Source: Acidicapsa acidisoli | Lineage (GTDB): Bacteria > Acidobacteriota > Terriglobia > Terriglobales > Acidobacteriaceae | Reading direction: 5' to 3' | DNA length: 64,000 nucleotides | NCBI RefSeq assembly: GCF_025685625.1 | Contig: NZ_JAGSYI010000002.1 | Location: forward strand, 992,001-1,056,000 | Shown here: in pieces, positions 11,032-27,258 of the stretch | How the letters are laid out: each line of letters begins with the position of its first letter | How positions within the stretch are numbered: the first letter of the stretch is position 1 | Made by a program: the position numbers and the translations under genes | The notes under the pieces: generated by a model | Database searches by the model: none | Told to the model about the DNA's origin: nothing | What the model saw: only the letters and a program-made list of their open reading frames with translations

Positions 11032-12504
11032 TCAGCCGAGCGGAATCCAGCCACTGAGGGCGCTTGGAAATACGCCAAGCAGAGCTACTGCGAGCGCGAT
11101 GATCACGAGAGTTGCGAGTTCGACGAATGAGATCAGCAGCGGCTCGGTCTGCGCTGATTTCACCACGTACACCCGCTTCAGCACCTGCAGATAGTAGAAG
11201 AGAGAAATTGCACTGGCGCCCAACGCCAGCGCCACGAGGGGCAGACCCCAATGGCCAGCGGTTGGCGAGCGCAGCACAGAAGCAAAAAGATTGAACTTGG
11301 CCCAGAAGCCGACTAACGGCGGAATTCCGGCGAGCGACAGAAGAAAAATCAGCATCGACCCCGCCAGAAGCGGATTGCGCCGGCTTAAGCCTGCGAACGC
11401 ATCCAGCTTGTCGCTCCCTGTCGAACGCTCCACGATGGAGATTACTCCAAAAGCTCCGATGATCGTTAACGCGTAGGTCAGCGTGTAATAGAGGACCGAC
11501 GCGCTGCTCTGGGGTGTGTGGGCGGCGATTCCAAGCAGCATGTAGCCTGCGTGTGCGATTGCCGAGTAGGCGAGCAGCCTGCGAACGCTGGTCTGGACCA
11601 GCGCTGCAAGATTGCCGAGCACGATGGAAGCGAAGGCCATCCAGACCAGGACCATGATCCATGGGGGATTTTGACCGTAAGGCTGGCTTCCGAGTACGCC
11701 GTCGGTCAGCGCAATGAGCACGGAGAAGCTGGCAACCTTGGAACCGGATGCGATCAGCGCAGCGATCTGCGTGGGCGCTCCCTGGTAAGTATCCGGAGCC
11801 CAGAGATGAAACGGCACTGCGGCGATCTTGAATCCGAGACCTGCGGCGACTAGCACCAGGGCCACGACCAGCAACGGACTGATGCTCTGCGACGCGAGGG
11901 CTGTGGCGATCTCAGACAAATTCGTGCTGCCGGTGAGGCCGTAGAGATAGCTGAAGCCGAAGAGCATCATTGCGGCGGACATGCCGCCGAAGAGGTAATA
12001 CTTGAGAGCCGATTCCGCCGACTGCGCGGAACTCTTGGCGAACGCCGTCAGGACGTAAAGCGACAGGCTCAACAGCTCGAGTGCAACGAAGATGATCAGC
12101 AGATCACGCGCCGCCGTGACCAGGAGCATGCCGGTCGCGCTCAACAGCACAATGGCTGCATATTCGCCGGGATTGCGGGAGAACTCCGCTTTGACGCTTA
12201 GTAACAGCACCAAGGCTGTCAGAATCAAGATTCCGATCTGCGCTGCGGCCACGAGCGGGGTTGCCGCCAATGCGTCCGTGGCGAGGCTTGCTGTCTGAGG
12301 ATGCGCGGACAGCCAGAGGACCGACGACAGACATCCGAGCACCCCCAGCACACACGCAGCCGCCATGCGGGTCGATTGCGCGCTCTTGCGCAGCCAGCCC
12401 AGATCGACGACCAGCACGAGCAGGGAGACTATTTCCAGAATCGTCTCTGGCAAAGTGACTGCAAACAGGTTGCCGTAATTCACGCCGTTTACAAGCGAGT
12501 TCAT
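11032..12504 (-). CDS. nuoN: NADH-quinone oxidoreductase subunit N
   Basis: This 490-residue antiporter-like membrane subunit of complex I has about 14 transmembrane helices. It is the last gene of a twelve-gene operon and follows the second nuoM with a four-base ATGA overlap. Motifs such as ALELLSLSLYVL (a conserved Glu in TM5), KAAVPFHLWAPD and YSAIAHAGYM are those of NuoN and Mrp-type proton channels. In the complex it sits next to NuoK and carries one proton-translocating half-channel pair. No clear terminator is visible between its stop and the convergent thiolase stop 8 bases away. Confidence 0.95.
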   Translation of the reverse strand: MNSLVNGVNYGNLFAVTLPETILEIVSLLVLVVDLGWLRKSAQSTRMAAACVLGVLGCLSSVLWLSAHPQTASLATDALAATPLVAAAQIGILILTALVLLLSVKAEFSRNPGEYAAIVLLSATGMLLVTAARDLLIIFVALELLSLSLYVLTAFAKSSAQSAESALKYYLFGGMSAAMMLFGFSYLYGLTGSTNLSEIATALASQSISPLLVVALVLVAAGLGFKIAAVPFHLWAPDTYQGAPTQIAALIASGSKVASFSVLIALTDGVLGSQPYGQNPPWIMVLVWMAFASIVLGNLAALVQTSVRRLLAYSAIAHAGYMLLGIAAHTPQSSASVLYYTLTYALTIIGAFGVISIVERSTGSDKLDAFAGLSRRNPLLAGSMLIFLLSLAGIPPLVGFWAKFNLFASVLRSPTAGHWGLPLVALALGASAISLFYYLQVLKRVYVVKSAQTEPLLISFVELATLVIIALAVALLGVFPSALSGWIPLG

Positions 12505-14045
12505 TGCCGGCCTCCCGTGAGCAGAACGTGAGGCATTGCCTGTACCGCTGGTGCGATTACGTCGAGCAGAAGACGCGGGTAAAGACCGATCACGAGACTT
12601 GTTCCAGTGAGCAGGATTACACCGGTCTTCTCCGCCCAGGTCACGGGCTCATACTCTGGTATTGGGACGCTGGCTCCGCTTGAGTCAATCGCTGGCAGGT
12701 CGCTGAAGAAGACCCGCTGCATGGCTCGCCAGGTGTAGGCGACACCGATGACGATTCCGAGACCGGCCAGCACGGCGAACCACGGGAATGCACGCCATGC
12801 GCCAACGAGAACCTGCACTTCCGCTACAAAACCGCTAAAGCCCGGCAATCCCATCGAAGCCATTCCGGCGATGACAAAGAGCCATGCGGCAAAGGGCATC
12901 GCCTTGCCCAGTTGCAGCCTGCTCAAGATTCCCAGATCCCTAGTGTGGGTGCGTTCGTAGACGATGCGGCCGACCGTTGCGAAGAGCAGGCCGGCGAGGA
13001 TTCCATGCGAGAACATTTGCAATACCGCGCCATCGATACCGATCTGCGTCAGTGTCAGCAGGCCGAGCAGAACGAGCCCCATGTGGCTCACACTGGAGTA
13101 GCCGATGACAAATTTGAAGTCGTTCTGTACCAGGGCGACCACTGCGCCGTAGAGGATGCCGATGACGGCGAAGAGCGCGAAGACCGTGCGCCAGGAATCG
13201 ATGCCCAGGACTGAGAATCCCCATGGATCAAGGCCGTGCGGGAAAAGCGTCATCGCAACGCGCAGGCAGCCGTAGGCGCCCAGCTTCATGACTACGCCGG
13301 CCAGCAGCATGGAAGCGGCGGTTGGCGCGGCGACGTGACCTGTAGGCGCCCAGGTGTGAAAGGGCCACATGCCCGCGAGAATTGCGAAGCCGGTAAAGAC
13401 CAGCGGGAAGGCCCACATCTGGAAGCTGATAGGAAAGGGATACTGCGCGAGTGCCTGCAGATTCATCGTGTGGCTGCCTGCCGTTGCGTAAGCCGCCAAT
13501 AAGCCGATCAATACCATCGCGGAACCTGCAAACGAGTAGAGAGCCAGTTTCATTGCTCCGTATTCGCAGCGGGTCGAGCCCCAGATCGCGATGAGGAAAT
13601 ACTTGGGCACGATCGCGATTTCGTAGAAGACAAAGAGCAGAAAGACATCTACGGAAAGAAAGACGCCGTAGACGCCTCCGATCAGCGCCAGAAAGAAGGC
13701 GAAGAACTCGTTGGCGCGATCCCCTTCTTTGTCGCCGATGTTCCACGAGAAAAGAATTCCGGCGACTGCAGCGAGGCCGGTGAGCAGTACCAGAACCCGG
13801 CTGATGCCGTCGGCAGCCAGCGTGTAGCGGATGCCCATCGCCGGAATCCACGCGACATCGGCGACGGCTACCGGGCCTTGCGCTCCTGCAGCGACAAAGC
13901 TCATGAGGGCCACGGCCAGCCCGATTACGGCCACTGCCAAGGCAATGACTCGAACAATTGCCGCGGCGGCTCTCGGCATCATCGCCAACACCAGCGCGCC
14001 CGCGAATGAGATGTAAATCGTGAGGGCCAGCATCAGAATCTCCAC
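12501..14045 (-). CDS. nuoM: NADH-quinone oxidoreductase subunit M, second copy
   Basis: This 514-residue antiporter-like subunit has FYEIAIVPKYFLI in place of the canonical FWELxLIP around the essential TM5 Glu, then MWPFHTWAPTGHVAAPTAASMLLAGVVMKLGAYG and YSSVSHMG. These are diagnostic NuoM-family motifs. It overlaps the upstream nuoM by 13 bases and nuoN by 4, so all three are co-translated. It is clearly diverged from the other NuoM, so this is not a recent duplication. The presence of two NuoM genes between nuoL and nuoN matches the described '2M' complex I variants, thought to have an extra pumping module. The extra pump is inferred from gene content. Confidence 0.93.
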   Translation of the reverse strand: MEILMLALTIYISFAGALVLAMMPRAAAAIVRVIALAVAVIGLAVALMSFVAAGAQGPVAVADVAWIPAMGIRYTLAADGISRVLVLLTGLAAVAGILFSWNIGDKEGDRANEFFAFFLALIGGVYGVFLSVDVFLLFVFYEIAIVPKYFLIAIWGSTRCEYGAMKLALYSFAGSAMVLIGLLAAYATAGSHTMNLQALAQYPFPISFQMWAFPLVFTGFAILAGMWPFHTWAPTGHVAAPTAASMLLAGVVMKLGAYGCLRVAMTLFPHGLDPWGFSVLGIDSWRTVFALFAVIGILYGAVVALVQNDFKFVIGYSSVSHMGLVLLGLLTLTQIGIDGAVLQMFSHGILAGLLFATVGRIVYERTHTRDLGILSRLQLGKAMPFAAWLFVIAGMASMGLPGFSGFVAEVQVLVGAWRAFPWFAVLAGLGIVIGVAYTWRAMQRVFFSDLPAIDSSGASVPIPEYEPVTWAEKTGVILLTGTSLVIGLYPRLLLDVIAPAVQAMPHVLLTGGRQ

Positions 14046-15556
14046 CCCGCAAGCAGGTGCATCACAGTAGCATTGATTGTTCCAAGAGCCAGTTGCGGTA
14101 CAAGGCCGAGTACCGCCATCAACACAAGGGCCGGGGCAACGGCCAATCGCTCAACCGCGGTTAAATCCGGAAACGCGTTCCATCGCTCCGGCAGCGGTCC
14201 GCTGAAGACGCGCTGAATCACGGTGAGAATCACTGCCGCAGTAATCAACAGTCCCAACACAGAGACTGTCGCGGAAACCCAGCTTAGCGGGAAGACTCCG
14301 CGGAAGATGAGGAATTCACTGACGAAGCCGTTCAGGCCCGGCAAGCCGAGCGAAGAGAAGAGCGCGATGCCCATCAGTCCACAGAAGACCGGCGCGGGCT
14401 TGCGCAGTCCTCCGAAATCGTCGATTCCCAGCAACCCTCCGGAGCGCTCCTCGAGCAGAGTCAGGAACCAGAAGATGGCGGCTGCGGTCAAACCATGGTT
14501 AAACATCTGCAGCACCACGCCATCGAGGGCTGCGGTCTCGCTCAGGCTCGTCGCCCCACTCGATCCTGAGGGCAGCGCAACGGCAAAGATAGCCAACAGG
14601 CAATAGCCGAGATGATTAACCGATGAGTATGCAAAGACTCGCTTTAGATCTTTCTGAACTGCAGCGGCCCATGCGCCGGCAACCACCGTAAGCGTGGCCA
14701 GCACCAGCAATGGTGTTCGCACCTGGGCGAGTTCGTGGCCGAAGATTGGCAACGCCAGCCGCAGCAGGCCGTACACGCCCATCTTGGACATGGCTCCTGT
14801 CAGCAGCATCGTGACCGGCGTCGGAGCTTTTGAGTATGTAGCGGGAAGCCAGGTGTGGAATGGCATTAGCGGTACTTTCACAGCAAAACCAAGCAGTACG
14901 GCGAGAGCGAGCCAGAGCGTAATCGGTCCGAGATGGGCCTGAATTGCGGTAGCCAGTTCGCCGGTCGCGGCCATCTGTGTCAACACCTCAAAGTCCATGC
15001 TGCCGGTGGCGAGAAACAGAGCCAGAAAAGCTAGTAGCAGCGCGACGGAACCGACCATAGTGTAGACAAAGAACTGCGTAGCCGCCGGGCCACGTCCTTC
15101 TCCGCCCCAGAGTTTGATCAGAAAGAACGCAGGGATCAGGCTGAGCTCCCAGAACAGGAACCAGTGGAAGAAGTTGAGTGCTGTGAAGGTTCCGAAGAGG
15201 CCGGACTCCAGCAGCAGAATCAGCGCGAAATAAAGCCCTGGCTGGCTGGCGACTTTCCTTGATGCCGCGATTACCATCAGCGAAACGATTGCGGCAAGCA
15301 GGAGCATCAACGCACCCAGCCCGTCGACACCGAGGTGGTATTCGATGCCCAAGCCGGGAACCCAGTCGGCGCGCTCGGCAAACTTCATTGTGCCGTCGGT
15401 CCCAATGCCGAACCAGACCCTGGCCGCAAGCGCGAGCGAGACTGTTCCGGCAACGAAAGCCACGCTACGAGCCACTGCTGCACGATTACCTGCCAGCAGC
15501 GCGATGACTGCGGCTACCGCGGGGATTGCGGTCAAAACGGTCAGCATGGGGATCAT
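14033..15556 (-). CDS. nuoM: NADH-quinone oxidoreductase subunit M, first copy
   Basis: This 507-residue proton-channel subunit has the classical NuoM signature LFWELSLIPAFFLIKLWGG (TM5 Glu), PLMPFHTWLPATYSKAPTPVTMLLTGAMSKMGVYG and YSSVNHLGY. About 14 transmembrane helices are predicted from the hydrophobic pattern. It overlaps the nuoL stop by four bases (ATGA) and its own 3' end overlaps the second nuoM. Its length is close to that of E. coli NuoM (509). Of the two copies it looks the more canonical. Its expected position is between NuoN/second NuoM and NuoL in the membrane arm. Confidence 0.94.
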   Translation of the reverse strand: MIPMLTVLTAIPAVAAVIALLAGNRAAVARSVAFVAGTVSLALAARVWFGIGTDGTMKFAERADWVPGLGIEYHLGVDGLGALMLLLAAIVSLMVIAASRKVASQPGLYFALILLLESGLFGTFTALNFFHWFLFWELSLIPAFFLIKLWGGEGRGPAATQFFVYTMVGSVALLLAFLALFLATGSMDFEVLTQMAATGELATAIQAHLGPITLWLALAVLLGFAVKVPLMPFHTWLPATYSKAPTPVTMLLTGAMSKMGVYGLLRLALPIFGHELAQVRTPLLVLATLTVVAGAWAAAVQKDLKRVFAYSSVNHLGYCLLAIFAVALPSGSSGATSLSETAALDGVVLQMFNHGLTAAAIFWFLTLLEERSGGLLGIDDFGGLRKPAPVFCGLMGIALFSSLGLPGLNGFVSEFLIFRGVFPLSWVSATVSVLGLLITAAVILTVIQRVFSGPLPERWNAFPDLTAVERLAVAPALVLMAVLGLVPQLALGTINATVMHLLAGWRF

Positions 15557-17742
15557 AGCCGCACCTGCCCAGTTGCCGCACCTACGACCAACGCCAGTCC
15601 GGCAAGCACAAGCACTCCCAAAGTCAAGACGCGCAGATATCCCGGCGCACGGCCGGCCTGCAACCAGGCCAGCACTCCGCCGCCGGTCACGAGCTCTTCG
15701 CAGCCCTTGTCGAAGGCGCCGTCAATCCATTGGGAATCGATGGATTTGTTTGTCAGTCCAAGGCCGCGGAAGCCGCTCGAAACGGCAGCTACGATTCCGC
15801 CCCAGACGCGCCGATCCAGCCAATCTGAGAACCGCGCAAGAGCTGCATACCAACGCAGTACCGTAGCCTCATATAACTCGTCGAAGTAGAGCCGATTTGC
15901 AAGCCCCTTCCATACCACAGGTGTAGAAGATTCGAGGACGTCTCTCATATCACAAGGAGTATCTTCTGGCTCATCGCCATGCTCTTGAAGATGGTGATGC
16001 GCTGGGGCTCCCACAGGCGCCTCGATGGGCTTGCGAGCATAGAGCCACCACCCAGCACCGAGCCCAGCAGCCACCAGAAGCGTGGTAAAGCCCATAAGGG
16101 GCAGCAGCCCCGGCTCACTGAATGCTTGTATATCCACACTAAGAGATTTGCTCTCGATGAAGCTTGTAAACCACGGCCATGCAGGCGTCCCGAGAATGCC
16201 AAGACCAATTGCGAAAACAGCGAGAATTGACAACGGCAGCGTCATCACCATCGGGCTCTCGTGCGGATGGGTGTGATGCGAGCCTCGCCAGTTTCCGAAG
16301 AAGACATAAGCGACTTGCCGGGTCATGTAGAAGGCCGTCAGTAATGCGCCGATTATGAGAAGGACGAACGGGCCTTGCGAGACAGGCCAGGAGTGCGCTG
16401 CGCCGATGATTGCGTCCTTGCTCCAAAAGCCGGAGAAGAAGATCGGGAAGCCGCTCAATGCCAACATGCCGATGGAGTACGTAAGAAATGTGATGGGCAT
16501 AGCCTTCCGGAGATGGCCCATACGGCGAATGTCCTGCTCCTCGTGGCAGCCGTGAATGACAGACCCGGCGCCGAGGAAGAGCAGCGCTTTGAAGAATGCA
16601 TGCGTGATCAGATGGAACATTCCGACGGCCACGCCGCCAACGGCGAGGCCAACCATCATGTAGCCGAGCTGTGAAACTGTTGAGTAGGCGAGGATGCGCT
16701 TGATGTCGTTCTGCGCAACGGCAACGAATGCGCCAAAAAGCGCGGTCAATGCGCCAACCCAGGCTACGACGGTCAGAGACACCGTAGAGCCTCCGACTGC
16801 CGCTCCAGCCGACATAAGTGGGTAGACACGCGCGACCAGATACACGCCCGCAGCAACCATCGTTGCCGCGTGGATCAATGCCGAAACCGGCGTTGGGCCC
16901 TCCATCGCGTCCGGAAGCCAGACGTGGAGCGGCAACTGTCCGCTCTTGCCCGCTGCGCCCGCGAAGATCAACAGGCCAATCGCGGTTGCGGCTGACAGGC
17001 CGAGGGCTGCTGGCTGACTCAAAAGGATCGCCAACGCTGCCGGCTCCATTGCGCCCGCGCCGTGGTTGTAGAAGAGCAGCGTGCCTGTCTGCGCAAAAAG
17101 CCACACCATGCCTAACAGAAAGAAGATGTCGCCCACGCGCGTAGTGAGGAATGCCTTCTTCGCCGCCGCTGCCGCACTCGATTTTTGATACCAGAAGCCA
17201 ATCAGCAGATACGAGGTGAGGCCGACAATCTCCCAGCACATGAAGAGCAGGAGCAGGCTGTTGGCGATCAGCACGCCGAGCATGCCTCCGGCAAAGAGCG
17301 ACAGGAAGCAGAAGAAGCGCGTGAAGTTTTCGTCATGCGCCATGTAACCGGTGGAGTAGATGAAGATCAGCAGACCGACAAAGGTGACCATCACCAGCAT
17401 GATCGCTGCGAGCGGGTCGAGTATCCAGCCCAGTTGAAGATAGGTCGCTCCGAGATCGATCCAGTTGAAGTTGACGACCTCGCGCGTCGCGGTTCCCTGC
17501 CCCCATGCGGTCAGCACATGCGCAAAGGCGCATAGCGCGAGTAGAAGCGAAACGCTTAACCCGCCTATCGCGAGTGCTGCGGCAGTCTTACGTAGCGGCT
17601 GCTTCAACAGGGCGATCAATCCGGCGGCCAGCATGGGTACGGCAGGAATCATCCACAGATTCGCCACGATCCACGATGGTGAAATCGGAGGCAGGTCTTG
17701 AGGTATCTGGGCAGCTAAAAGGGATGCACTACAAGCAATCAT
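15553..17742 (-). CDS. nuoL: NADH-quinone oxidoreductase subunit L
   Basis: This 729-residue distal membrane-arm subunit shows FMCWEIVGLTSYLLIGFWY (TM5 Glu), LPLHVWLPDAMEGPTPVSALIHAATMVAAGVYL and YSTVSQLGYM, all NuoL hallmarks. It is longer than E. coli NuoL (613 residues). The extra length is mainly near the C-terminus (about 560-700). There a His/Glu-rich loop precedes the NRLYFDELYEA region and the lateral helix that runs along the membrane arm. An elongated lateral helix would suit a complex with two NuoM subunits, but that is inference. AAGGG lies about 10 bases before the ATG, and nuoK ends 7 bases upstream. Confidence 0.94.
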   Translation of the reverse strand: MIACSASLLAAQIPQDLPPISPSWIVANLWMIPAVPMLAAGLIALLKQPLRKTAAALAIGGLSVSLLLALCAFAHVLTAWGQGTATREVVNFNWIDLGATYLQLGWILDPLAAIMLVMVTFVGLLIFIYSTGYMAHDENFTRFFCFLSLFAGGMLGVLIANSLLLLFMCWEIVGLTSYLLIGFWYQKSSAAAAAKKAFLTTRVGDIFFLLGMVWLFAQTGTLLFYNHGAGAMEPAALAILLSQPAALGLSAATAIGLLIFAGAAGKSGQLPLHVWLPDAMEGPTPVSALIHAATMVAAGVYLVARVYPLMSAGAAVGGSTVSLTVVAWVGALTALFGAFVAVAQNDIKRILAYSTVSQLGYMMVGLAVGGVAVGMFHLITHAFFKALLFLGAGSVIHGCHEEQDIRRMGHLRKAMPITFLTYSIGMLALSGFPIFFSGFWSKDAIIGAAHSWPVSQGPFVLLIIGALLTAFYMTRQVAYVFFGNWRGSHHTHPHESPMVMTLPLSILAVFAIGLGILGTPAWPWFTSFIESKSLSVDIQAFSEPGLLPLMGFTTLLVAAGLGAGWWLYARKPIEAPVGAPAHHHLQEHGDEPEDTPCDMRDVLESSTPVVWKGLANRLYFDELYEATVLRWYAALARFSDWLDRRVWGGIVAAVSSGFRGLGLTNKSIDSQWIDGAFDKGCEELVTGGGVLAWLQAGRAPGYLRVLTLGVLVLAGLALVVGAATGQVRL

Positions 17743-17749
17743 TCCTCGT

Positions 17750-18073
17750 TCATCCCTTCATCCGCGTCATGGCATCCAGATCGGTCGTTTTCGTATGGCG
17801 ATGATATGCGATCACCAAGCCAAGGCCTACTGCGGCTTCCGCAGCGGCAACGGCAATCGAAAAAATTGCGAACATCATGCCGGTGAGTCCATCATTGTGC
17901 CCGTTTGCGTGTGGAGTAAATCGCCAGAATGCGATCAGGTTCAGATTGGCGGCATTCAACATGAGTTCAATGCCAATCAGCACCAGGATGGCGTTGCGTC
18001 GTGTGAGCGCGATGGCCAGGCCAATCGCGAAAACGAGCGCCGCAACAATCAGGAAAGCTGCCAGTGGAGTCAT
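17750..18073 (-). CDS. nuoK: NADH-quinone oxidoreductase subunit K
   Basis: I place the start at the ATG at 18073, giving a 107-residue protein with three transmembrane helices. This is the standard NuoK size; the longer open frame upstream lies inside nuoJ. GIELMLNAANLNLIAF contains the conserved membrane Glu of NuoK, with a second acidic position in AAAEAAVGLGL. The start overlaps the nuoJ stop by four bases. The subunit forms part of the E-channel joining the quinone site to the antiporter-like subunits. Confidence 0.95.
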   Translation of the reverse strand: MTPLAAFLIVAALVFAIGLAIALTRRNAILVLIGIELMLNAANLNLIAFWRFTPHANGHNDGLTGMMFAIFSIAVAAAEAAVGLGLVIAYHRHTKTTDLDAMTRMKG

Positions 18074-18633
18074 TTGCCGCTGCTCGTTTCTGCGCCGGAC
18101 GTGTCTGCGCCGATCCTGGGCGTGCGCGTTTCCGGCATCGCTACGATTACGGCTCCAATAAGTGCGACTGTAAGTACGACCGCGACGATTTCCAAGGGCA
18201 GCACATAGGTGCTCATCAGCGCGGCTCCGATCGACTGGACAGAGACAGCGGGGACGGCGGGCGCTACGCTCGTTGCGATATTCGCGGGAAGGCTTCTGAT
18301 TACAGACCACGCAAGCAGTGCGAAAACTGCGGCTGCAATCACCAGACAGGCCAGCCAACTGGAAGAGAAGCCGCGATACTCTGGGATGCCCGCGCCGCGA
18401 GTAAGCAAGATGGCGAAGACGACAAGGATCGCGACTGCTCCGATATAGACAAGAATCTGCGAAAATCCGGCGAACTGCGCATCAAGCTGCAAATACAGGA
18501 GCGCAAGGCCAGCAAAAGTAACCGTCAGGCTGAGCGCGCAATGCACGAGATTCTTGAGCAGAGCTGCCGCGAGTGCGCCTGCAACCGTAAGGGCAGCCGT
18601 CAACAAAAAGACGGCGCTTAGTCCGAAGATCAT
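18070..18633 (-). CDS. nuoJ: NADH-quinone oxidoreductase subunit J
   Basis: This 187-residue protein has five hydrophobic helices. It includes the NLVHCALSLTVTFAGLALLYLQLDAQFAGFSQILVYIG-type region (given in part), in which the pi-bulge helix of NuoJ lies, and AILVVFAILLT. GAGGAG precedes the ATG by about 10 bases; nuoH ends 33 bases upstream. The C-terminal tail, including the stop, overlaps nuoK by four bases. In complex I, NuoJ couples quinone-site changes to the membrane arm. Confidence 0.93.
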   Translation of the reverse strand: MIFGLSAVFLLTAALTVAGALAAALLKNLVHCALSLTVTFAGLALLYLQLDAQFAGFSQILVYIGAVAILVVFAILLTRGAGIPEYRGFSSSWLACLVIAAAVFALLAWSVIRSLPANIATSVAPAVPAVSVQSIGAALMSTYVLPLEIVAVVLTVALIGAVIVAMPETRTPRIGADTSGAETSSGK

Positions 18634-18666
18634 AGGTTCGTACTCCTCACCGGAGTTATTTCAGAG

Positions 18667-19848
18667 CTACTCCGCATAGCGATAGCTCCTCGGGCCGAGA
18701 CGCTGATGGCGCATTAGAATGCGGCCAAGCAGCACGTAGGCACACAAAAGTACGAGACTGCAAATCACCCAGCGCGACCAGCCTTCGCCGAGGAACCGCC
18801 AGGCGCCGGCAACGAGGATATTCAGCAGCGTCATGGGCAGCATGAACTTCCAGGCGAAGTTCATCAGTTGGTCCTGACGCAGGCGGGGCAAGGTTCCGCG
18901 TAGCCAGATAAAGAAGACGATTGCTGCCAGAAGCTTGAAGAAGAACCACGCCCAGGACGGCACGAAACCCAGGAAGGAAAACGGTGCGCCCCATCCTCCA
19001 AGAAACAACGTGATTGCGAAGCCGGCAATCGAAAACATGCCGAGATACTCGCCCAGGAAGAAGAGCGCGAACTTGAAGCCTGAGTATTCGGTGAAGTAAC
19101 CGGCGACCAGCTCCGATTCGCCCTCGGGCAGATCGAATGGCGAGCGGTTGGTTTCAGCTAGCGCGGCGATGACGAATAAGACGAAGCCCGCGAATCCCCA
19201 TGGCGTGAACACGTACCAGTGAGGAAAGATGCCGGTAAATCCACTCTGCGCTTCCACGATCTTGACGGTCGAAAGCGAGCCGGTGATCATCACCGCGACC
19301 ACGCTGGAAAGCAGCAGCGGAACCTCATAGCTGATCATCTGCGCCACGGCTCGGAGTGCGCCAAGAAGCGAATACTTGTTGCGGCTCGACCATCCAGCCA
19401 TGAAAATCGAAAGCTCGGTCGACGCGCCAATGGCGAAGAAGAACAGGAGTCCCGCGTCCATGTTCATCAGCACCATATTGCGCCCGACCGGCAGCACTGC
19501 GTAGCCCAGGAAGATGGCTACCACCAACACGACCGGCGCGAGGAAATGCACGACTGCATCGGCGCTGCGCGGCACAATGTCTTCCTTGGTCAGGGACTTG
19601 ATGCCGTCGGCGACGGGCTGCAGGATACCCAACGGCCCTACACGATTCGGCCCGAGGCGATTCTGAATGCGGCCCAGGCCCTTGCGCTCAAGCACCGTGG
19701 TGACGGCAAAGATAGCGGGGAAGGTCGCGACGATTGCGACCACGGCGACCACCGCTCCCACCGCTGGCTGCAGTGACTGCGGAAAGAAGCCTTCGATCCA
19801 GTGTTGCAGGAGCACGAATATCTGATCGAATTGCGAGGAAAGGCTCAC
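18667..19848 (-). CDS. nuoH: NADH-quinone oxidoreductase subunit H
   Basis: This 393-residue membrane subunit forms the quinone-access tunnel with NuoB and NuoD. Motifs include ERKGLGRIQNRLGPNRVGPLG, GIKSLTKEDIVP, YEVPLLLSS and FDLPEGESELVAGYFTEYSG, which carries the conserved acidic loop. Eight or so transmembrane segments are visible. Its ATG overlaps the nuoI stop by four bases. Nothing is missing relative to functional NuoH proteins, which argues that this complex reduces a quinone. Confidence 0.96.
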   Translation of the reverse strand: MSLSSQFDQIFVLLQHWIEGFFPQSLQPAVGAVVAVVAIVATFPAIFAVTTVLERKGLGRIQNRLGPNRVGPLGILQPVADGIKSLTKEDIVPRSADAVVHFLAPVVLVVAIFLGYAVLPVGRNMVLMNMDAGLLFFFAIGASTELSIFMAGWSSRNKYSLLGALRAVAQMISYEVPLLLSSVVAVMITGSLSTVKIVEAQSGFTGIFPHWYVFTPWGFAGFVLFVIAALAETNRSPFDLPEGESELVAGYFTEYSGFKFALFFLGEYLGMFSIAGFAITLFLGGWGAPFSFLGFVPSWAWFFFKLLAAIVFFIWLRGTLPRLRQDQLMNFAWKFMLPMTLLNILVAGAWRFLGEGWSRWVICSLVLLCAYVLLGRILMRHQRLGPRSYRYAE

Positions 19849-20495
19849 GCGCCGGGCTCCTTTGCGGGAGCAACCTTTGCGACGGGAGCGGCAGCAGGAG
19901 TTGGCGGCGCGGCCGCAGCAGCCGCAGCTTTCGCAGCAGCCGCCTCTGCCGCGGCTTTGGCCTTCGTCTCAGCCTTGGCCTTTTCTTCAGCGAGCCGCGC
20001 GTCGACTTCCGCTGCTTCCGTCGGATGAATCTTGTGATAGTGCTCGTTTGACTTGGAGAGCTGCTCGCGATCGTACAGAAGACCGCCAAAGCGATCGGTC
20101 GTGCTCAACTCGAACTCCGTGTCCATCTTGATCGCCTCAAAGGGACAGACCTCGACGCATATCTGACAGCTCATGCAGACGGAGATATCAATGTCGAATC
20201 GGGTCGGATAGATCTGCATCTTGCCTACAAAATCCGGCTTCTTATCGGTGGACTTTACGATGTAAATGCATTTAGGCGGGCATTCTTTTTCGCAGATTTG
20301 GCAGGCTACGCAGCGCAGCCCGGCCATCGGGTCATTGCCGTCATAAATCAGAATCGGGAAATCGCGGGTGTTCTCGATCGGCGCGATCCGCTCTTCGGGA
20401 TATTGCACCGTGGTAAGCCGTTCTTTCGAGACAAAGCTGCCGGCGAAGTTCTTCGCCGTCTCTGCCAGTCCCTGCAGAATTCCTTCGCCTAACAT
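19845..20495 (-). CDS. nuoI: NADH-quinone oxidoreductase subunit I (2 x 4Fe-4S)
   Basis: This 216-residue peripheral-arm subunit has two 4Fe-4S motifs: CVACQICEKECPPKC, and CMSCQICVEVCPFEA further on. These hold clusters N6a and N6b, which pass electrons to N2 in NuoB. After about residue 165 the protein has an unusual Ala/Pro/Lys-rich low-complexity tail of about 50 residues, rare in NuoI and perhaps an interaction tether. AAAGGAG lies 10 bases before the ATG. nuoG does not precede it in this operon; nuoD does. Confidence 0.95.
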   Translation of the reverse strand: MLGEGILQGLAETAKNFAGSFVSKERLTTVQYPEERIAPIENTRDFPILIYDGNDPMAGLRCVACQICEKECPPKCIYIVKSTDKKPDFVGKMQIYPTRFDIDISVCMSCQICVEVCPFEAIKMDTEFELSTTDRFGGLLYDREQLSKSNEHYHKIHPTEAAEVDARLAEEKAKAETKAKAAAEAAAAKAAAAAAAPPTPAAAPVAKVAPAKEPGA

Positions 20496-20520
20496 CGGGC
20501 GTACTCCTTTTGTACGGCCA

Positions 20521-21678
20521 TTATCTGTCTACCTCGCCCAATACAATGTCCACGCTGCCAAAGATCAGGACCACGTCGGCTACGTTCCGGCCGAGGCACA
20601 TGTCCTCGAGCACTGTCAGATTGATCAACGATGGTGGCCGAACGCGATATCGATATGGATTGGGGCTACCATCGCTGATGAGATAGAAGCCAAGCTCGCC
20701 TTTTGGAGCTTCGATGCGCCCATAAGCTTCGCCGGCCTTGGGTCGAAAGCCGCGAATCTTCGATTTCGGGTCCATGATCGGGCCTGCGGGAATATCCTTG
20801 ATTGCCTGCTTCAGAATTTCAATGGACTCGCGCATTTCCAGTATGCGGATCATGTAACGGTCATAGATGTCGCCGTGATCGCCGAGCGGCACGCGGAATT
20901 TGAAACGGTCATAAATGCCGTAGTGATCGACCTTGCGGATGTCGTAGTTCACGCCGGTGGCTCGCAGCATCGGCCCTGTCACTCCGGCGTTCACTGCCAG
21001 ATCCGGTTTGAGGATGCCCACTCCCTGCGTGCGGGCCATCAGGATTTCATTCCCGGTCAAGAGCGCTTCCGTTTCGTCGATGAACTCCGGCAAGCCATCG
21101 ACGATCTTGCTGACCTGTTCGAGCCAACCCTTGGGAAGTTCGACGCGGCATCCACCGAAGCGCATGTAGTTGCACATCATGCGCGAACCGGTGAGCGCCT
21201 CAAACAAATCGAGGATTTTCTCCCGCTCGCGGAAAGCGTACATCAGCGGAGTGCCGCTGGCGCCCATCTCCTGCAAGAGAAAGCCGATGGCGCTGGCGTG
21301 GTTCTGAATGCGGGTCAGTTCCGCCGTGATGACGCGAATGTATTGTGCGCGCTCCGGAACTTCCATCCCGGCGAGCTTTTCAACCGCGATGGCATAGGCC
21401 CAGTTATTGGTCAGCGAGCAGAAGTAGTCGAGCCTGTCGGTATACGGCATCGACGCGAGATAACTGGTTGTCTCGGCAATTTTTTCGTGATTGCGATGCA
21501 GATAGCCGAAGACCGGCTTGAGCCGTACGACCCGCTCGCCATCGAGCGCGACATCCATGCGAAAGACCCCGTGGGTCGAGGGATGGTGCGGTCCCATCGC
21601 CACTTCAAGCAGTTCATCGCCTTCCTCGGAGAGTTCGATGACGGGCGGCCGGTAGCTTTTGAGATCAGTCGCGGTCAT
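20521..21678 (-). CDS. nuoD: NADH-quinone oxidoreductase subunit D
   Basis: This 385-residue 49-kDa-type subunit lines the quinone pocket. [13 protein letters not shown] near residue 28 holds the conserved His of the quinone head-group site, and YDRYMIR and the C-terminal VLGEVDR are also typical. It lacks the NiFe-hydrogenase cysteines, as expected for complex I rather than a membrane hydrogenase. The ATG overlaps the nuoC stop by four bases. NuoC and NuoD are separate proteins here, unlike the fused form in E. coli. Confidence 0.96.
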
Positions 21679-22325
21679 GCCGTCACCCCGGTATTGGCCT
21701 TATGTTGTTCCGCGCGTTTCAGGACCTCGTCGTGCGGCGTCGGTTCGTATTCAAAGTCGTCCGGGTCCACATAGTCGCGGCGCATGGGGTGGTCTTCGAA
21801 GCCGTCCCACATCAGAATTCGCCGCAGGTCCGGGTGCCCGGTGAATACGATTCCAAAAAGGTCGAAGATCTCCCGCTCCTGAAACTCCGCGGAGCGCCAT
21901 ACCGGCGTCAGCGACGGCAGTTCTACCTGATCGGTCCGGTTGACCGTGCGCATTCGCAACACGACTGGACCGGCGATCTCCCGGTGCGCGTGTTTCATGG
22001 AATAGAGGTGATACACGGCCTCCAGGTAGCCCGCCTGGACGCGCTTGACGGTCTCTTCCACAATGGTCTCAACACCGTCGACGACCTTGGTCACCTTCAC
22101 CTTTTCGGTGATTTCCTTACCCGGCCAGTCAACGCCTGTTGCGTTGGAGCAGTAGTCCAACGCCAGCTCCGGATCATTGCGCAGAAAACTTGCGACAGCC
22201 AGAGCATGAGCCGGATCAAGCCGCAAAGAGTGCTGCGCGGAGGGACTGGGATTCGGCACCAGTTCCACGCCCGCTTCCGGCAACGCCGTCTTGATTGCGG
22301 CGAGGATTTCTTCGGCGGACTTCAT
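21675..22325 (-). CDS. nuoC: NADH-quinone oxidoreductase subunit C
   Basis: I choose the ATG at 22325, which overlaps the nuoB stop by four bases and gives 216 residues; a longer frame runs back into nuoB. The 30-kDa-subunit signature [36 protein letters not shown] (quoted in part: [18 protein letters not shown]) is intact. An insertion of charged residues (about 80-100, [19 protein letters not shown] in part) precedes the core. The subunit stabilises NuoD in the peripheral arm. Its gene order between nuoB and nuoD is normal. Confidence 0.94.
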
Positions 22326-22963
22326 TCGCAACTCCCTGTTGGCTTGCCGCTGGTCGATGGAGCGGGCAGTGGCCACACCAGCCGGTTCACGGGTGGCTCC
22401 AGATCGTGGGCGCCCTGCTCCGGAACGGGAAACAGGCCCTGCGCGTCGGCGTCCAGATGGCGCGGCCTGTCGCCGCCGGTCAATGGCTGGGCGTCGATCC
22501 TGGCTTGCAGCGTCATGAAGGCATGAATCAGCGCTTCCGGGCGCGGTGGGCAGCCGGGAATGTGCACATCGACCGGAATGTAGCGGTCGATCCCCTTGAG
22601 CACGTTGTAACCCTGCTTGAAGGGACCGCCGGAGATGGCGCAGGCGCCCATCGCAATCACGTATTTCGGCTCGGCCATCTGGTTGTACAGGCGAACGACC
22701 TGCGGAGCCATCTTCTTGGTGATCGTTCCGGAGATGATCATCAAATCCGCCTGACGCGGCGAGGGTCGAAAGACCTCTGCGCCAAAACGCGCCAGATCAT
22801 ACCGGGCCATAGTCGTGGCGATCATCTCAATGGCGCAGCAGGCGAGTCCAAACTGCATGGGCCAGACAGAGTTCTTGCGCCCCCAGTTATAAATCTCGCT
22901 AATGGTCGTCACGAAGACGCCTTGTTTGCCGAGTTCGATCTTCAAGTCAGGCTCAACCGCCAT
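22322..22963 (-). CDS. nuoB: NADH-quinone oxidoreductase subunit B
   Basis: The start at 22963 is supported by AAGGGAG 6-7 bases upstream and gives MAVEPDLK; the open frame reaches a GTG at 23002 immediately after nuoA. The 213-residue product has the four cysteines of cluster N2: C42 and C43 in the ACCAIEM motif, C108 in [11 protein letters not shown] and C138 in [12 protein letters not shown]2 passes electrons to quinone at the NuoD/H interface. The C-terminal 40 residues or so are polar and variable. All residues needed for activity are present. Confidence 0.96.
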
Positions 22964-23002
22964 CCATTGCTCCCTTAATTCGCAACACTCGGAACCCGAC
23001 AC

Positions 23003-23380
23003 TCAGGCCCAGGTCAGTACGCCTTTGGCCCAGGCCCACGCCAGCCCCTCGGCCAGCAACAGGACAAAGACCAGCATTGCAACGCATGCGCCCACGCCCA
23101 GCCCGGTAAAAGCTACCGCAAACGGAAGCAGAAAGACCGCCTCCACATCAAAAATGAGAAAGATGATCGCGTACAGGTAATAGGCCGATCGGAACTGCAC
23201 CCAGGCGTCGCCGCGCGACTCAAGTCCGCACTCGTAAATCGCGTTCTTGATAGCGTTCGGCTTGGCGGGCGAAACGAGCCGCGCCCAGGCCCAGGCCAGC
23301 CCCAGCGGAGCCAACCCGAATCCCAGCGCCGCTATGAACAAAACTGCCAGTGGAAGATAAGGATTTGAGGCCATCGTCAT
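23003..23380 (-). CDS. nuoA: NADH-quinone oxidoreductase subunit A
   Basis: This is the first gene of the complex I operon: about 125 residues with three transmembrane helices. The NuoA signatures YECGLESRGDAWVQFRSAYYLYAIIFLIFDVEAVFLLPFA are present (quoted in part: YECGLESRGDAW and FDVEAVFLLP). I choose the ATG at 23380; an upstream in-frame TTG at 23404 and an ATG at 23374 are also possible, and no start has a clear ribosome site. nuoB begins 39 bases after its stop. The promoter must lie in the 354-base gap shared with the divergent cytochrome gene. Confidence 0.93.
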   Translation of the reverse strand: MTMASNPYLPLAVLFIAALGFGLAPLGLAWAWARLVSPAKPNAIKNAIYECGLESRGDAWVQFRSAYYLYAIIFLIFDVEAVFLLPFAVAFTGLGVGACVAMLVFVLLLAEGLAWAWAKGVLTWA

Positions 23381-23734
23381 ATCGAGTAAAAGTCTTGCGG
23401 ACAACGTTTTGGATATCCTGGCTGCTTACTGCCGAGGTGGGCAGCTGGAAGTTTCCCCCATCCCAAACCAGACCCGCATTTTGCAGTTCATCGTACTTTA
23501 TTTGCCATTCGCTGCGCTATATGGCGATTGGGCAAAGCGCGCCGAAGTCCCACATCATGGCCCATGGCTCGCTTGAGAACCGCGCACGACCTCCATCAAA
23601 GCTGTCAGAATCTCCATCTTCCGGTGGATGACAGTCGACGCCTCGGTGCTGCTATCGTTCGCAATGGAGATTCCGGCGTCAATTCTTCCCCATTCCAGCG
23701 CCAGGCTCTCCATTTCCGGGGGGACGCGAAGCTG
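23381..23734. other. Divergent intergenic region between nuoA and cytochrome-TPR gene
   Basis: This 354-base stretch separates the complex I operon from the divergent multihaem cytochrome gene and must hold both promoters. The cytochrome reading frame stays open back to 23528, so part may be coding, but the translated stretch has no signal-peptide character. GGGGGGA at about 23718-23724 serves as a ribosome site for the ATG at 23735. I see no convincing paired -35/-10 boxes or terminator. Confidence 0.5.
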
Positions 23735-26224
23735 ATGCACGACAAACTTTTCCGCCAATTGGCCAACTGTCCAGCTCGCCGATACCGCCAGGCCCGTCAC
23801 GTTGCGACATCGAGGCGTTTCCGGATGCTGGGTGCGTCTTTCGGCCTCGCAGCTTTTGTCTTCGCGCCGGTTGGATTGGTTCGCGCAGGCACCGGTTTGC
23901 CATCAGCCCAACAATCGGCGGCTCAGACCCAGGCGGCTCAGGCTCAGACCCAGGCTCAGACTCCAGCTTCCTCGCAAACTCAGCAGCCCGCAGCAGTCCC
24001 CGCCGACGAAGGCACCTTCGGCAGCGCACCCGGAACTCCCAGCACCACCCCAACCGTAGCCCCGTGGATGACGGTCCCGCCGACCGAGTACCATACGCAC
24101 GTCGCCTCCAAGTACAACTATGCTTTTGGAAAAGAATCGCCGTTTTTGCCCTCGAACGCGACCTCGTACAACGGCGAGTTCATGAGTCCGAAGAGCTTTC
24201 CCACCGCGCAATATTGCGGCCATTGCCACCAGGAGAGCTACCGCCAGTGGCGCCAGTCCGCGCACTCCAATAGTTTTCGTGCGCCCTGGTATCTCAAGAA
24301 CGTAAATCTGCTCATCGAAGAGAAGGGCGTGCAGTTCTCGCGGCATTGCGAGGGTTGCCACAATCCGGTGGCGCTGCTCTCCGGCGATCTCTCGCAAGGC
24401 ATGCCGCGCAAACGGCCCTTTGAAGACGAAGGCCTGACATGCATGACATGCCATGCCATCACTTCTACGACCACCTACGGGACGGGCAGCTATGTCATGG
24501 GCTATCCGGCGGTGATGGTCGACGAGAACGGTCAGCCAATCACGCATTCCGTGCCGGACAGCGAGATCCTTGCGCACCTAGACCGTCATTCGAAAGCCGT
24601 TATGCGGCCGCTACTGCATACATCGGAATTTTGCGCCGCCTGCCACAAGGCCGCGATCCCGAAGTCTCTGGATGACTACAAGTGGCTGCGCGCCATGACG
24701 CCGTACGATGAGTGGCAGGCAGCCAGCTTCACCAAACAGTCGCCACTTCCCTTCTACCGCAAGGAGATTGTCTCCACCTGCCAGACCTGCCACATGGTCA
24801 AAGAGGCCCTCCCGGCAAGCTCGTCCGACTACGGAGCAAAAGAAGGCAAGCTGGTCAGCCATCGCTGGCTTGGCGCGAACACACTGATTCCTCAGTACTA
24901 CAAGTTCGATGAACAGGCCGAAAAGACTGCGGCCTTCCTGCGCAACGGCGTCTTCAACGTCGATATCTTTGCTTTAGAGACGGAAAGCTCCGGGGGGACC
25001 TCTGCCGATTCCGTTCTGATTGCCCCGCTCGGCCTGACCGGCTTCTCGCTAGCCTCAGGTGAAACCCTGACCGCCGACGTCGTCATCCAGAACAAAGGGG
25101 CTGCGCACTCGCATGTGCCGGAGCAGCGCGACTTCTACGAGTCGTGGGTCGATTTCACCGTGAAGGATGCAAGCGGCAAGACGCTTGTCGAGAGCGGATT
25201 CCTCAAACCTGACGGCTATCTGGATGAATCGGCCCACTCATTTACCAACCGCATCATCAATAACAAGGGCGAGTTCAACGATCTTCACCAGATCTGGCAC
25301 AACCGCGTGCTTGCCTACAACAACACGATCCAATCGGGGCGAAGCCAGTTGGTGCGCTACCGTTTCCGCATTCCGAAGGACCTTACCGGCTCCTTCAGCG
25401 TCACAGCAACCGTCAAGTATCGCCGATTCAATCAGCGCTTCATCGATTACGCGATGAAGGAGAAGCACTACCCCGAGCCGGTGATCGAAATGGCTGGCCA
25501 GACGCGCACCTTCGCAATCGGTGAAAACGCGCCCGTGAAGCCCGGCCCCGACGAGAACAAGGAATGGATGCGCTGGAACAACTACGGCATCGGCTTGCTG
25601 GATGCTCAGCAATACGCCGCCTCGGTCCATGCCTTCGAACGGGTTGCGGCCCTCCGGCCCGATTACGCCGACGCCTTCACCAACATGGCTATCGTTGAGA
25701 TTCTGTGGGAAAAGTACGACGACGCCCGGCCAAATCTCGCCAAGGCGCTATCGTTGCTGCCCGACGATCCTCGCGCGCTCTATTACCGCGCACTGGTTGA
25801 GCGCAACGGAGGGCAGGTCAAGGAGGCCATCACGGACCTCGAAGCCGTGCTGATCAAATATCCACGCTCCCGCGATGCACTGCGCGAGCTTGGCTTCAGC
25901 TATTACCAGCAGCACAATTACCCGCGCGCCCGCGACATCTATGAGCAGTTACAGGGCGTCGACCCGGACGATCTGGCCGCGCACTACAACCTGGCTATCC
26001 TCTACCGTCGTCTAGGTCAAAAGGACAAGGCCAGTTACGAGGCGGCTCGTTTCGCCGATCAGAAAGATGACCCGACAGCCTCCGTTTATGCGCTTGAATT
26101 CCTGCGCAAGCATCCTGAGGTTGCGAATGAAAGCGTCGTCTGGCATGCGCATGACTTGACCGGCGATCCAATCAAGCACTCCGACAAGATCCAGTACACC
26201 TATATGTCAGGCGGAGGCGAGTAA
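23735..26224 (+). CDS. Pentahaem c-type cytochrome with C-terminal TPR repeats
   Basis: The likely start at 23735 follows GGGGGGA by about 10 bases and gives 829 residues. A hydrophobic export segment (GASFGLAAFVFAPVGLVRAG) is followed by a Gln/Ala-rich linker. The next 300 or so residues contain five CxxCH haem sites: CGHCH, CEGCH, CMTCH, CAACH and CQTCH. A beta-rich middle region follows, and the last 200 residues are TPR helices (for example ALRPDYADAFTNMAIVEI and LGFSYYQQHNYPRARDIYEQL). It is probably periplasmic or surface-located and carries electrons, with the TPR domain binding a partner. It is divergent from complex I, which suggests, but does not prove, a respiratory role. Confidence 0.82.
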   Translation: MHDKLFRQLANCPARRYRQARHVATSRRFRMLGASFGLAAFVFAPVGLVRAGTGLPSAQQSAAQTQAAQAQTQAQTPASSQTQQPAAVPADEGTFGSAPGTPSTTPTVAPWMTVPPTEYHTHVASKYNYAFGKESPFLPSNATSYNGEFMSPKSFPTAQYCGHCHQESYRQWRQSAHSNSFRAPWYLKNVNLLIEEKGVQFSRHCEGCHNPVALLSGDLSQGMPRKRPFEDEGLTCMTCHAITSTTTYGTGSYVMGYPAVMVDENGQPITHSVPDSEILAHLDRHSKAVMRPLLHTSEFCAACHKAAIPKSLDDYKWLRAMTPYDEWQAASFTKQSPLPFYRKEIVSTCQTCHMVKEALPASSSDYGAKEGKLVSHRWLGANTLIPQYYKFDEQAEKTAAFLRNGVFNVDIFALETESSGGTSADSVLIAPLGLTGFSLASGETLTADVVIQNKGAAHSHVPEQRDFYESWVDFTVKDASGKTLVESGFLKPDGYLDESAHSFTNRIINNKGEFNDLHQIWHNRVLAYNNTIQSGRSQLVRYRFRIPKDLTGSFSVTATVKYRRFNQRFIDYAMKEKHYPEPVIEMAGQTRTFAIGENAPVKPGPDENKEWMRWNNYGIGLLDAQQYAASVHAFERVAALRPDYADAFTNMAIVEILWEKYDDARPNLAKALSLLPDDPRALYYRALVERNGGQVKEAITDLEAVLIKYPRSRDALRELGFSYYQQHNYPRARDIYEQLQGVDPDDLAAHYNLAILYRRLGQKDKASYEAARFADQKDDPTASVYALEFLRKHPEVANESVVWHAHDLTGDPIKHSDKIQYTYMSGGGE

Positions 26225-26259: not shown

Positions 26260-27258
26260 TTAATCCACCGCCACAATCCCGTACTTCCGATCCAGAAACT
26301 CCCGCAATGGCTCTGGTAGCAGCGCCGCCAGCTCCTGCCAGGTCAACACCTTACACCGCACGCGCATCTCCGCGCGCCGGACCGCCGTTATCACTCGAAA
26401 CCAGGCCTCCCGCAGATCCGGCCTGCGCTGGTCGTGCATCACGCAAAAGCTGCATCCAGTAGCATAGGCCGCCAGTACATTGCGAATGAGTTGATAGCCC
26501 GCGTAGCCCGGCTCCACCGGCTGTTGTGCTACTCCCTTCGCCACAATTGCCTGCTGATATGCTTTCGCCGCTGCGGCCCTCACATTCCTCTCGTCGTCTG
26601 GCGCGTCCGAAGCCTCCCACTCCTGCGAAAACTCCTCTGGAAACTCCGCCGCGGCCTTCTGTCTTAAAGTCCTAAGCTTCACCCTCGGGAGCAAATCCCG
26701 ATCAAAAACCTCATCAAAATCCCGGTACGCCTCGACGACGGTGGCAGAGCGCGTCTGGAAATCCGCCTCGGTCAACTTCGCTTCAACCAGCAGCCCGCCC
26801 CATCGCATATCGACTTCAGTCCGGTCTTCGCGGGCGTTCCTGAGCGGCACACGCGCCTTCCATCCGAAGACAGGCGGCTCATAGCCGGCGACTCCCAGCG
26901 CGCGATGCACTCTTGCCGATTCCACTACCCCTGGCGTACAAAATACATTCATCAGCAGCGCATCCGAGCTGGTCGAGGAGTCCAGCTCACGCCAGAGCCG
27001 GCCCGTCTCATGCCTGGGCAACGACTGCCTGGCCTGGGCGTGAATTTTTGTCAGCCGCCGCATCCATTCCGGCCGTGCGCAAATGGCCGCATAGGCGTCG
27101 TCGAAAAAGTTCCCGTGCCGCCCGCCATCCGGCGCGTACACAATCACCGGCTGGCTCCCGTAACTCTCAACATGCACCCATCCGGTCGCGTATTGCCGGT
27201 TGCGCTGGCAAAGCTCGTGCCGCAGTCGACTTGCGTAGCTGTAGTTTTCCTCCGCCAT
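26260..27258 (-). CDS. Hypothetical protein with PD-(D/E)XK nuclease-like motif
   Basis: This 332-residue soluble protein has no signal or membrane segment. The central segment EVDMRWGGLLVEAKLTEADF contains D150 and E159-A-K161, the spacing of a PD-(D/E)XK nuclease active site. A downstream patch (YQLIRNVLAAYATGCSFCVMHD, quoted in part) resembles the helical region seen after the core in putative restriction-endonuclease-like orphans. No methyltransferase or other defence gene is adjacent: a cytochrome gene lies on one side and a TonB receptor on the other. Function unknown; nuclease activity is inference from the motif alone. Confidence 0.6.
   Translation of the reverse strand: MAEENYSYASRLRHELCQRNRQYATGWVHVESYGSQPVIVYAPDGGRHGNFFDDAYAAICARPEWMRRLTKIHAQARQSLPRHETGRLWRELDSSTSSDALLMNVFCTPGVVESARVHRALGVAGYEPPVFGWKARVPLRNAREDRTEVDMRWGGLLVEAKLTEADFQTRSATVVEAYRDFDEVFDRDLLPRVKLRTLRQKAAAEFPEEFSQEWEASDAPDDERNVRAAAAKAYQQAIVAKGVAQQPVEPGYAGYQLIRNVLAAYATGCSFCVMHDQRRPDLREAWFRVITAVRRAEMRVRCKVLTWQELAALLPEPLREFLDRKYGIVAVD

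Follow-up and report, generated by a model that had tools for sequence, protein, structure and literature searches.

The nuo operon of the window

The window analysed here is a 64,000-nucleotide stretch of the Acidicapsa acidisoli genome, and its positions 11032-23404 carry, on the minus strand, twelve genes in the order nuoA-B-C-D-I-H-J-K-L-M1-M2-N. This order had been given in a preliminary description of the same DNA, and all twelve genes were found in it. In an NCBIfam scan, ten of the proteins each matched their own Nuo family, some of them below the cut-off; NuoK was identified by Pfam (PF00420), and NuoN by a PF00361 match together with 33% identity, upon alignment, to the NuoN of the genome's other operon.

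The first gene, nuoA (23003..23404), starts either with a TTG at 23404 or with an in-frame ATG at 23380. It is followed by nuoB (22322..23002), whose product scores above the PRK14819 cut-off and has Cys55-Cys56, Cys121 and Cys151, which fit the ligands of N2 and which we take to have that role. NuoC (21675..22376) and NuoD (20521..21678) are encoded separately, and nuoI (19845..20495) specifies two CxxCxxCxxxC motifs and a C-terminal tail rich in Ala, Lys and Glu. Next come nuoH (18667..19848), nuoJ (18070..18633) and nuoK (17750..18073), and then nuoL (15553..17742; 729 residues, 627.7 bits to NF005141 with a cut-off of 556), nuoM1 (14033..15556), nuoM2 (12501..14045) and nuoN (11032..12504). 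M1 and M2 both exceed the NDH_I_M (TIGR01972) cut-off, with 422.1 and 416.1 bits versus 263.8. With the starts as called, 4-base overlaps occur at five of the 11 junctions (C/D, I/H, J/K, L/M1 and M2/N), where the earlier remark had spoken of many junctions.

No nuoE, nuoF or nuoG was found within 11032-23404. The operon thus differs from that of the 14-subunit NADH:quinone oxidoreductase, in which nuoEFG accompany the other genes; EFG lie in another operon of the genome (L009). Two nuoM genes lie between nuoL and nuoN, which is the mark of 2M complex I, a known kind of enzyme whose architecture has already been described. M1 keeps all four key charged residues, namely the TM5 Glu, TM7 Lys, TM8 Lys and TM12 Glu (E137, K227, K258 and E414), whereas M2 keeps the TM5 Glu, TM8 Lys and TM12 Glu (E142, K254 and E409) and has Leu (L223) at the TM7 Lys position. 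Both NuoM had been credited with the TM5 Glu and the channel Lys residues, and this holds in full for M1 and, the TM7 Lys excepted, for M2.

When the two NuoL proteins of the genome were aligned, that of the 2M operon exceeded that of the ordinary operon in length at the C-terminal lateral helix; compared with one-M complexes, this helix of the window NuoL has about 26 additional residues. We expressed the difference as the number of residues separating the last hydrophobic segment from a conserved DELY-type motif, in a sample composed of the window, seven relatives and 26 of the first 80 loci obtained in the scan described below, the later 38 loci being left out. The spacing was 75-85 (median 82) in 34 of 34 NuoLs from 2M operons; among 17 one-M NuoLs, 11 were measurable and gave 51-62, the other six having motif variants or a cut end. 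Within the latter group it was 51-58 in 8 of 13 NuoLs accompanied by a NuoM lacking the TM7 Lys, three of the eight (L135, L139 and L181) coming from loci cut on the N side, and 60-62 in three of four ordinary ones. A stricter motif allowed the spacing to be read in 31 of the 34 and nine of the 17 NuoLs, again with no overlap. In an AlphaFold model of the window NuoL (mean pLDDT 82), which matches NuoL/NdhF chains structurally, helices span residues 617-672 and 674-693, and pLDDT is below 50 at 672-701. For a related subunit, the available text of PMC9040806 describes an HL helix with an insertion of 26 residues, which resembles in length and position the insertion known from Nitrospira 2M NuoL. 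The lengthened lateral helix is thus a 2M hallmark of this NuoL. The suggestion that its 729 residues might accommodate an extra subunit is borne out to that extent, and the helix and the two nuoM genes together uphold the 2M reading of the preliminary description.

Distribution of 2M operons and their coexistence with ordinary complex I

The same gene order was found in the loci of seven relatives (L063-L069) and in three Verrucomicrobiota loci (L237, L238 and L240), a fourth (L239) having no nuoA match. Among 41 genomes, the window's own and 40 relatives, M1 is present in 14 of 14 genus mates at 70-86% identity, G002 having it as two partial matches. Two further genera have it at 69% and, as a partial match, 74%; in the rest, identity is 41% at most. 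Of the 398 genomes sampled within the family, 131 match the M1 profile, and they represent 17 of 79 genera. Among 395 genomes sampled across the phylum, the M2 profile exceeds 760 bits in 15, every one within Acidobacteriaceae, and 12 more genomes match at 372-389 bits with the single, Lys-less NuoM of other families.

Scanning the DNA of named genomes with a pattern aimed at the Lys-less class of NuoM yielded at least 118 loci. Because the pattern begins seven residues after the TM7 Lys site, it did not select directly for the residue there; because it is aimed at one class, it would pass over any 2M complex with a second M from the other class. The 118 loci listed comprise 74 2M loci, 16 one-M loci with a whole L-M-N, six with L-M cut towards N and 22 that are undecidable, including L114, where the second M match is on the opposite strand. 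In L192, M1 occurs in two pieces. Among the matches listed, the 2M loci belong to Verrucomicrobiota (45, including Akkermansia), Acidobacteriota (22) and Chloroflexota (6), with one bearing no taxon label. The named rows nearest to the window M1 and M2 are from Acidobacteriaceae or Acidobacteriota, including Terracidiphilus, at 72-73% identity, a proximity that by itself would place the window there. We found no paper on 2M complexes of Acidobacteria or Verrucomicrobia in the part of the open literature that was covered.

The genome of the window (7.11 Mb, 18 contigs, 99% complete) encodes seven antiporter-module proteins (PF00361), four in the 2M operon and three about 0.9 Mb away. The latter are part of locus L009, which contains nuoA, C, D, E, F, G, H, J, K, L, M and N; a second nuoB is on contig 7, and a second nuoI, above the cut-off, is at C2:1346841. 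An ordinary complex I is thus fully encoded beside the 2M operon, with EFG in the ordinary operon. A genome search for nuoEFG and a second nuo operon had been proposed earlier, and both were found. The statement that NuoE/F/G are absent stands for the operon and fails for the genome, which encodes one NuoF, with nuoE and nuoG in the same other operon; a loss of EFG from the genome is ruled out by that NuoF match. Sharing of NuoB and NuoI by two operons, one of them lacking these genes, is likewise ruled out by the separate nuoB and nuoI. The ordinary operon was present in all three relatives checked for it (L061, L062 and L070). Single matches had given the impression that genus mates with small genomes carry the 2M complex only, and this was ruled out in the two that were checked (L061 of G008 and L062 of G013). 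According to the available text of PMC12361115, most Acidobacteriota possess a complete complex I.

With EFG encoded in the same genome, the NuoEFG of the ordinary operon could dock on both complexes, and the 2M enzyme would then be an alternative NADH dehydrogenase with four pumps. NuoF was found in 14 of 15 genus genomes, and NuoF-type proteins (PF01512) in 37 of 39 genomes reached via M2-bearing loci, 33 of these loci being securely 2M. Since PF01512 also covers segments of other enzymes that resemble NuoF, some of the 37 do not represent complex I. Sharing of nuoG has been suggested for Chloroflexus with a duplicated nuoM, in the portion of PMC3150298 available. However, EFG lie in an operon with the A, C, D, H and J-N of an ordinary complex I that has its own nuoB and nuoI elsewhere, and one genome with a secure 2M locus (G788), a MAG of unknown completeness with a second set of antiporter modules, has no NuoF match. 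A nuoEFG set assembling with the window operon had been named as the observation that would overturn the earlier reading; the set that exists belongs to the ordinary operon, whose complex I is complete in this genome, and we regard docking on both complexes as unlikely.

All five Verrucomicrobiota genomes searched have further antiporter modules beyond the four of the 2M operon. Together with the NuoF-type proteins, these place 2M and ordinary complexes side by side in the same genomes, which fits two electron donors but is no proof of them. Ferredoxin has been hypothesised as the partner of both the Nitrospira 2M complex (PMC6606698) and the 11-subunit enzyme (PMC11238625), as stated in the available parts of these papers. 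The genome of the window encodes two POR_N proteins, both far from the 2M operon: one of 616 residues, adjoining a protein judged by eye to be korB-like, and one within a 1610-residue open frame, which may be a PFOR. The presence of POR_N alone says little, since 10 of 14 control genomes had it as well as seven of eight further 2M genomes. In an Opitutae genome (G769), the operon is flanked by a POR alpha gene immediately before nuoA and by a PFOR past nuoN, the latter two being separated by an NAD(P)H-oxidoreductase-like gene. Among five Verrucomicrobiota genomes searched, POR_N is on the contig of the 2M operon in G769 and on other contigs in three, and had no match in one. The earlier caution over the donor, with ferredoxin and a NuoEFG encoded elsewhere both named, was justified, and ferredoxin is the better guess.

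NuoM with and without the TM7 lysine

The TM7 Lys corresponds to K234 of E. coli NuoM, the position being counted on our alignment and the name taken from the available text of PMC3046159. In the 74 2M loci among the matches listed, M1 has Lys at this site in 70 and is cut there in four, and M2 has Leu in 73 and Met in one; the single NuoM of all 16 one-M loci with a whole L-M-N, among the same matches, has Leu. An alignment of 80 NuoM contains 40 with Lys and 40 with Leu, and the residue preceding the TM5 Glu is Trp in the 40 Lys-type and Tyr in the 40 Leu-type proteins. Thirteen of 13 further NuoM of relatives, taken as best M1 matches, carry the Lys.

In a tree of 66 NuoM, a branch with 100/100 support splits 33 Lys-type from 33 Lys-less rows. 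Of the first 49 2M loci, 25 were submitted to alignment and 18 to the tree, rows below 430 residues having been dropped, and L149 and L169 are labelled single-M though cut on the upstream side. The M1 sequences all fall together (100/99), as do the M2 of Acidobacteriaceae and Verrucomicrobiota (100/100). The window NuoM group with Verrucomicrobiota 2M, and Acidobacteriaceae are nested within Verrucomicrobiota in both the M1 and the M2 group, which suggests, as far as the NuoM tree can indicate it, that the operon may have been transferred between the two phyla. A recent tandem duplication of nuoM is ruled out by the 33% identity between M1 and M2 and by their placement in different halves of the tree. 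The preliminary description had named a recent duplication lacking key residues as evidence against it; the lineages proved old and separate, while M2 does lack the TM7 Lys. By our own expectation, four equal pumps would each keep all four key charged residues. Since M2 is without one of them, there is no firm case for regarding it as an extra pump of the ordinary type.

The missing TM7 Lys is unexpected under current models of complex I. Replacing this residue in NuoL, M or N of E. coli led to loss of function (earlier work as summarised in PMC3046159), and in the available text of PMC10212512 a TM5-TM7 ion pair is assigned to each antiporter-like subunit, with the TM12, TM8 and TM7/TM5 sites forming the minimum set for the proposed mechanism. 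One could therefore suppose that M2, which lacks the Lys in 74 of 74 cases among the matches listed, is a spacer or modulating module and no proton pump, and that the complex pumps as a three-module enzyme. Yet M2 retains the other three charged residues and also His230, 321 and 347. Moreover, a Lys-less NuoM is the sole NuoM in the 16 whole one-M loci, and the same holds for 12 loci belonging to other families within the phylum, among them one that is cut towards N, so this lineage seems to act as a normal M subunit; either the residue is dispensable in it or those complexes couple differently. An M2 that does not pump seems to us quite improbable. The structural model of M2 (mean pLDDT 87) has TM-scores of 0.88-0.90 to the NuoM of Paracoccus, E. 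coli and Mycobacterium.

Six residues past the TM5 Glu, M2 has a lysine, K148, that is invariant in 22 of 22 Acidobacteriaceae and Verrucomicrobiota M2 (24 of 24 in alignment A6). Met occupies the site in two of two Chloroflexota M2, in 16 of 16 single Lys-less M and in 14 of 14 ordinary M; 26 M1 carry Ala, Val or Ser there. We tentatively propose, as a possibility rather than a firm expectation, that NuoM comprises two ancient lineages, with and without the TM7 Lys, and that the 2M complexes, both of Acidobacteriaceae with Verrucomicrobiota and of Chloroflexota, joined one of each. The Lys-less M, encoded beside NuoN, would then move protons without the Glu-Lys pair, and K148 may substitute in the M2 of Acidobacteriaceae and Verrucomicrobiota. 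In the part of the open literature covered, we found no paper on Lys-less NuoM. Two natural NuoM lineages differ at a residue deemed essential for coupling, and a 2M complex holds both; models that require a TM5-TM7 ion pair in each module become testable on natural enzymes.

Proposed function and relation to known complexes

We consider it probable, at roughly two chances in three, that the operon encodes a 2M complex I of twelve subunits acting as a ferredoxin:quinone oxidoreductase with four antiporter-like modules. NuoB, C, D and I would form the Q module and NuoA, H, J and K the membrane foot, beside the four modules in the presumed order N-M2-M1-L, held by a NuoL lateral helix that is longer by about one module. 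Reduced ferredoxin, from the genome-encoded 2-oxoacid:ferredoxin oxidoreductases, most likely gives electrons at NuoI, and they would pass via N2 to quinone. The larger redox span could pay for a fifth proton per two electrons, a stoichiometry we infer, and the enzyme could presumably also run backwards, making ferredoxin. That it is mainly a reverse enzyme, in which proton motive force drives ferredoxin reduction from quinol, has been proposed for Nitrospira 2M (available text of PMC6606698 and PMC12342949), but that proposal concerns CO2 fixation, and for the window operon we consider it very improbable. 2M complexes would shift more protons per electron pair, with consequences for the energetics of Acidobacteriaceae and of Verrucomicrobiota, Akkermansia among the latter.

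Several known systems resemble the window operon in part. The green complex I of rhizobia shares with it a fourth antiporter-like subunit; there, however, two MrpD-like subunits replace NuoL (PMC9040806, text available in part), whereas the window NuoL is above the NuoL cut-off (627.7 bits to NF005141 versus 556), which rules out a green complex I. The 11-subunit complex I of Desulfitobacterium and the cyanobacterial NDH-1 likewise have no NuoEFG, and NuoI is their likely entry point for ferredoxin, as described in the available part of PMC11238625. The window operon agrees with them in having no EFG and a NuoI with two 4Fe-4S motifs. It departs from their single NuoM and eleven subunits (nuoABCDHIJKLMN in Desulfitobacterium, PMC11238625), having two NuoM and twelve genes. 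In cultured Chloroflexi, nuoBCDI lie apart and nuoCD are fused (available text of PMC7117926), unlike in the window operon. The Chloroflexota 2M loci share with it the L-M1-M2-N order, an equally long NuoL (L146 and L164) and a TM7 Lys that is present in M1 and missing from M2. Their M2, unlike that of the window, occupies a different part of the Lys-less half of the tree, and K148 is missing in two of two cases.

Chadwick et al. reportedly described in 2018 the 2M complex I that Nitrospira possesses (CI_1, 'clade 3'). Compared by description, in the available text of PMC6606698 and PMC12342949, the Nitrospira 2M complex shares with the window operon two NuoM, separate NuoC and NuoD, a longer NuoL, no NuoE/F and an ordinary complex I in the same genome. 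NuoH, said in the accessible part of PMC6606698 to be absent from N. moscoviensis CI_1, is kept in the window operon.

Genes flanking the 2M operon

Beside the complex I operon with two NuoM subunits (2M operon), and divergent from its nuoA, lies a plus-strand gene (window 23528-26224) whose product matches cytochrome c554/MtrC-like domains weakly and contains TPR repeats. It is followed on the minus strand by a putative restriction endonuclease of the REase-ARP family (window 26260-27258).

Split nuoM frames and taxon labels

Among the matches listed, nuoM2 was broken into two frames in two Verrucomicrobiota MAGs (L127, L140) and nuoM1 in one Acidobacteriaceae MAG (L192); these may represent either frameshifts or assembly errors. 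In the pair of scan loci L130 and L095, the NuoM on an Acidimicrobiia-labelled contig was identical to that of a genome from the window's phylum, probably owing to an error in this label or in a bin. Among the matches listed, a single NuoM lacking the TM7 lysine also occurs on a Bacillota-labelled contig (L201, Aneurinibacillus sp. MAG).

Ordinary complex I genes and further NuoB-family proteins

The genome to which the window belongs (G000) also carries an ordinary complex I operon (L009, contig C2). Between its nuoF and nuoG sits an ORF (L009:10521-10838) whose product has a HicB-like antitoxin domain. The gap between nuoD and nuoE holds two ORFs (L009:13028-13794), neither with a Pfam match, the smaller of which has matches in the ordinary operons of relatives (L061, L062 and L070). 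The nuoB and nuoI genes of ordinary complex I are located away from their operon, at G000:C7:69017 and G000:C2:1346841, respectively; a NuoI scored above the cut-off in 11 of the 15 genus genomes. Two more proteins of the NuoB family, encoded at G000:C2:851918 and 855755, are possibly [NiFe]-hydrogenase small subunits. An additional complex I-like cluster with weak matches was observed in the genus mate G008 (L077, G008:C5:880000-897438), and possibly encodes a membrane-bound hydrogenase.
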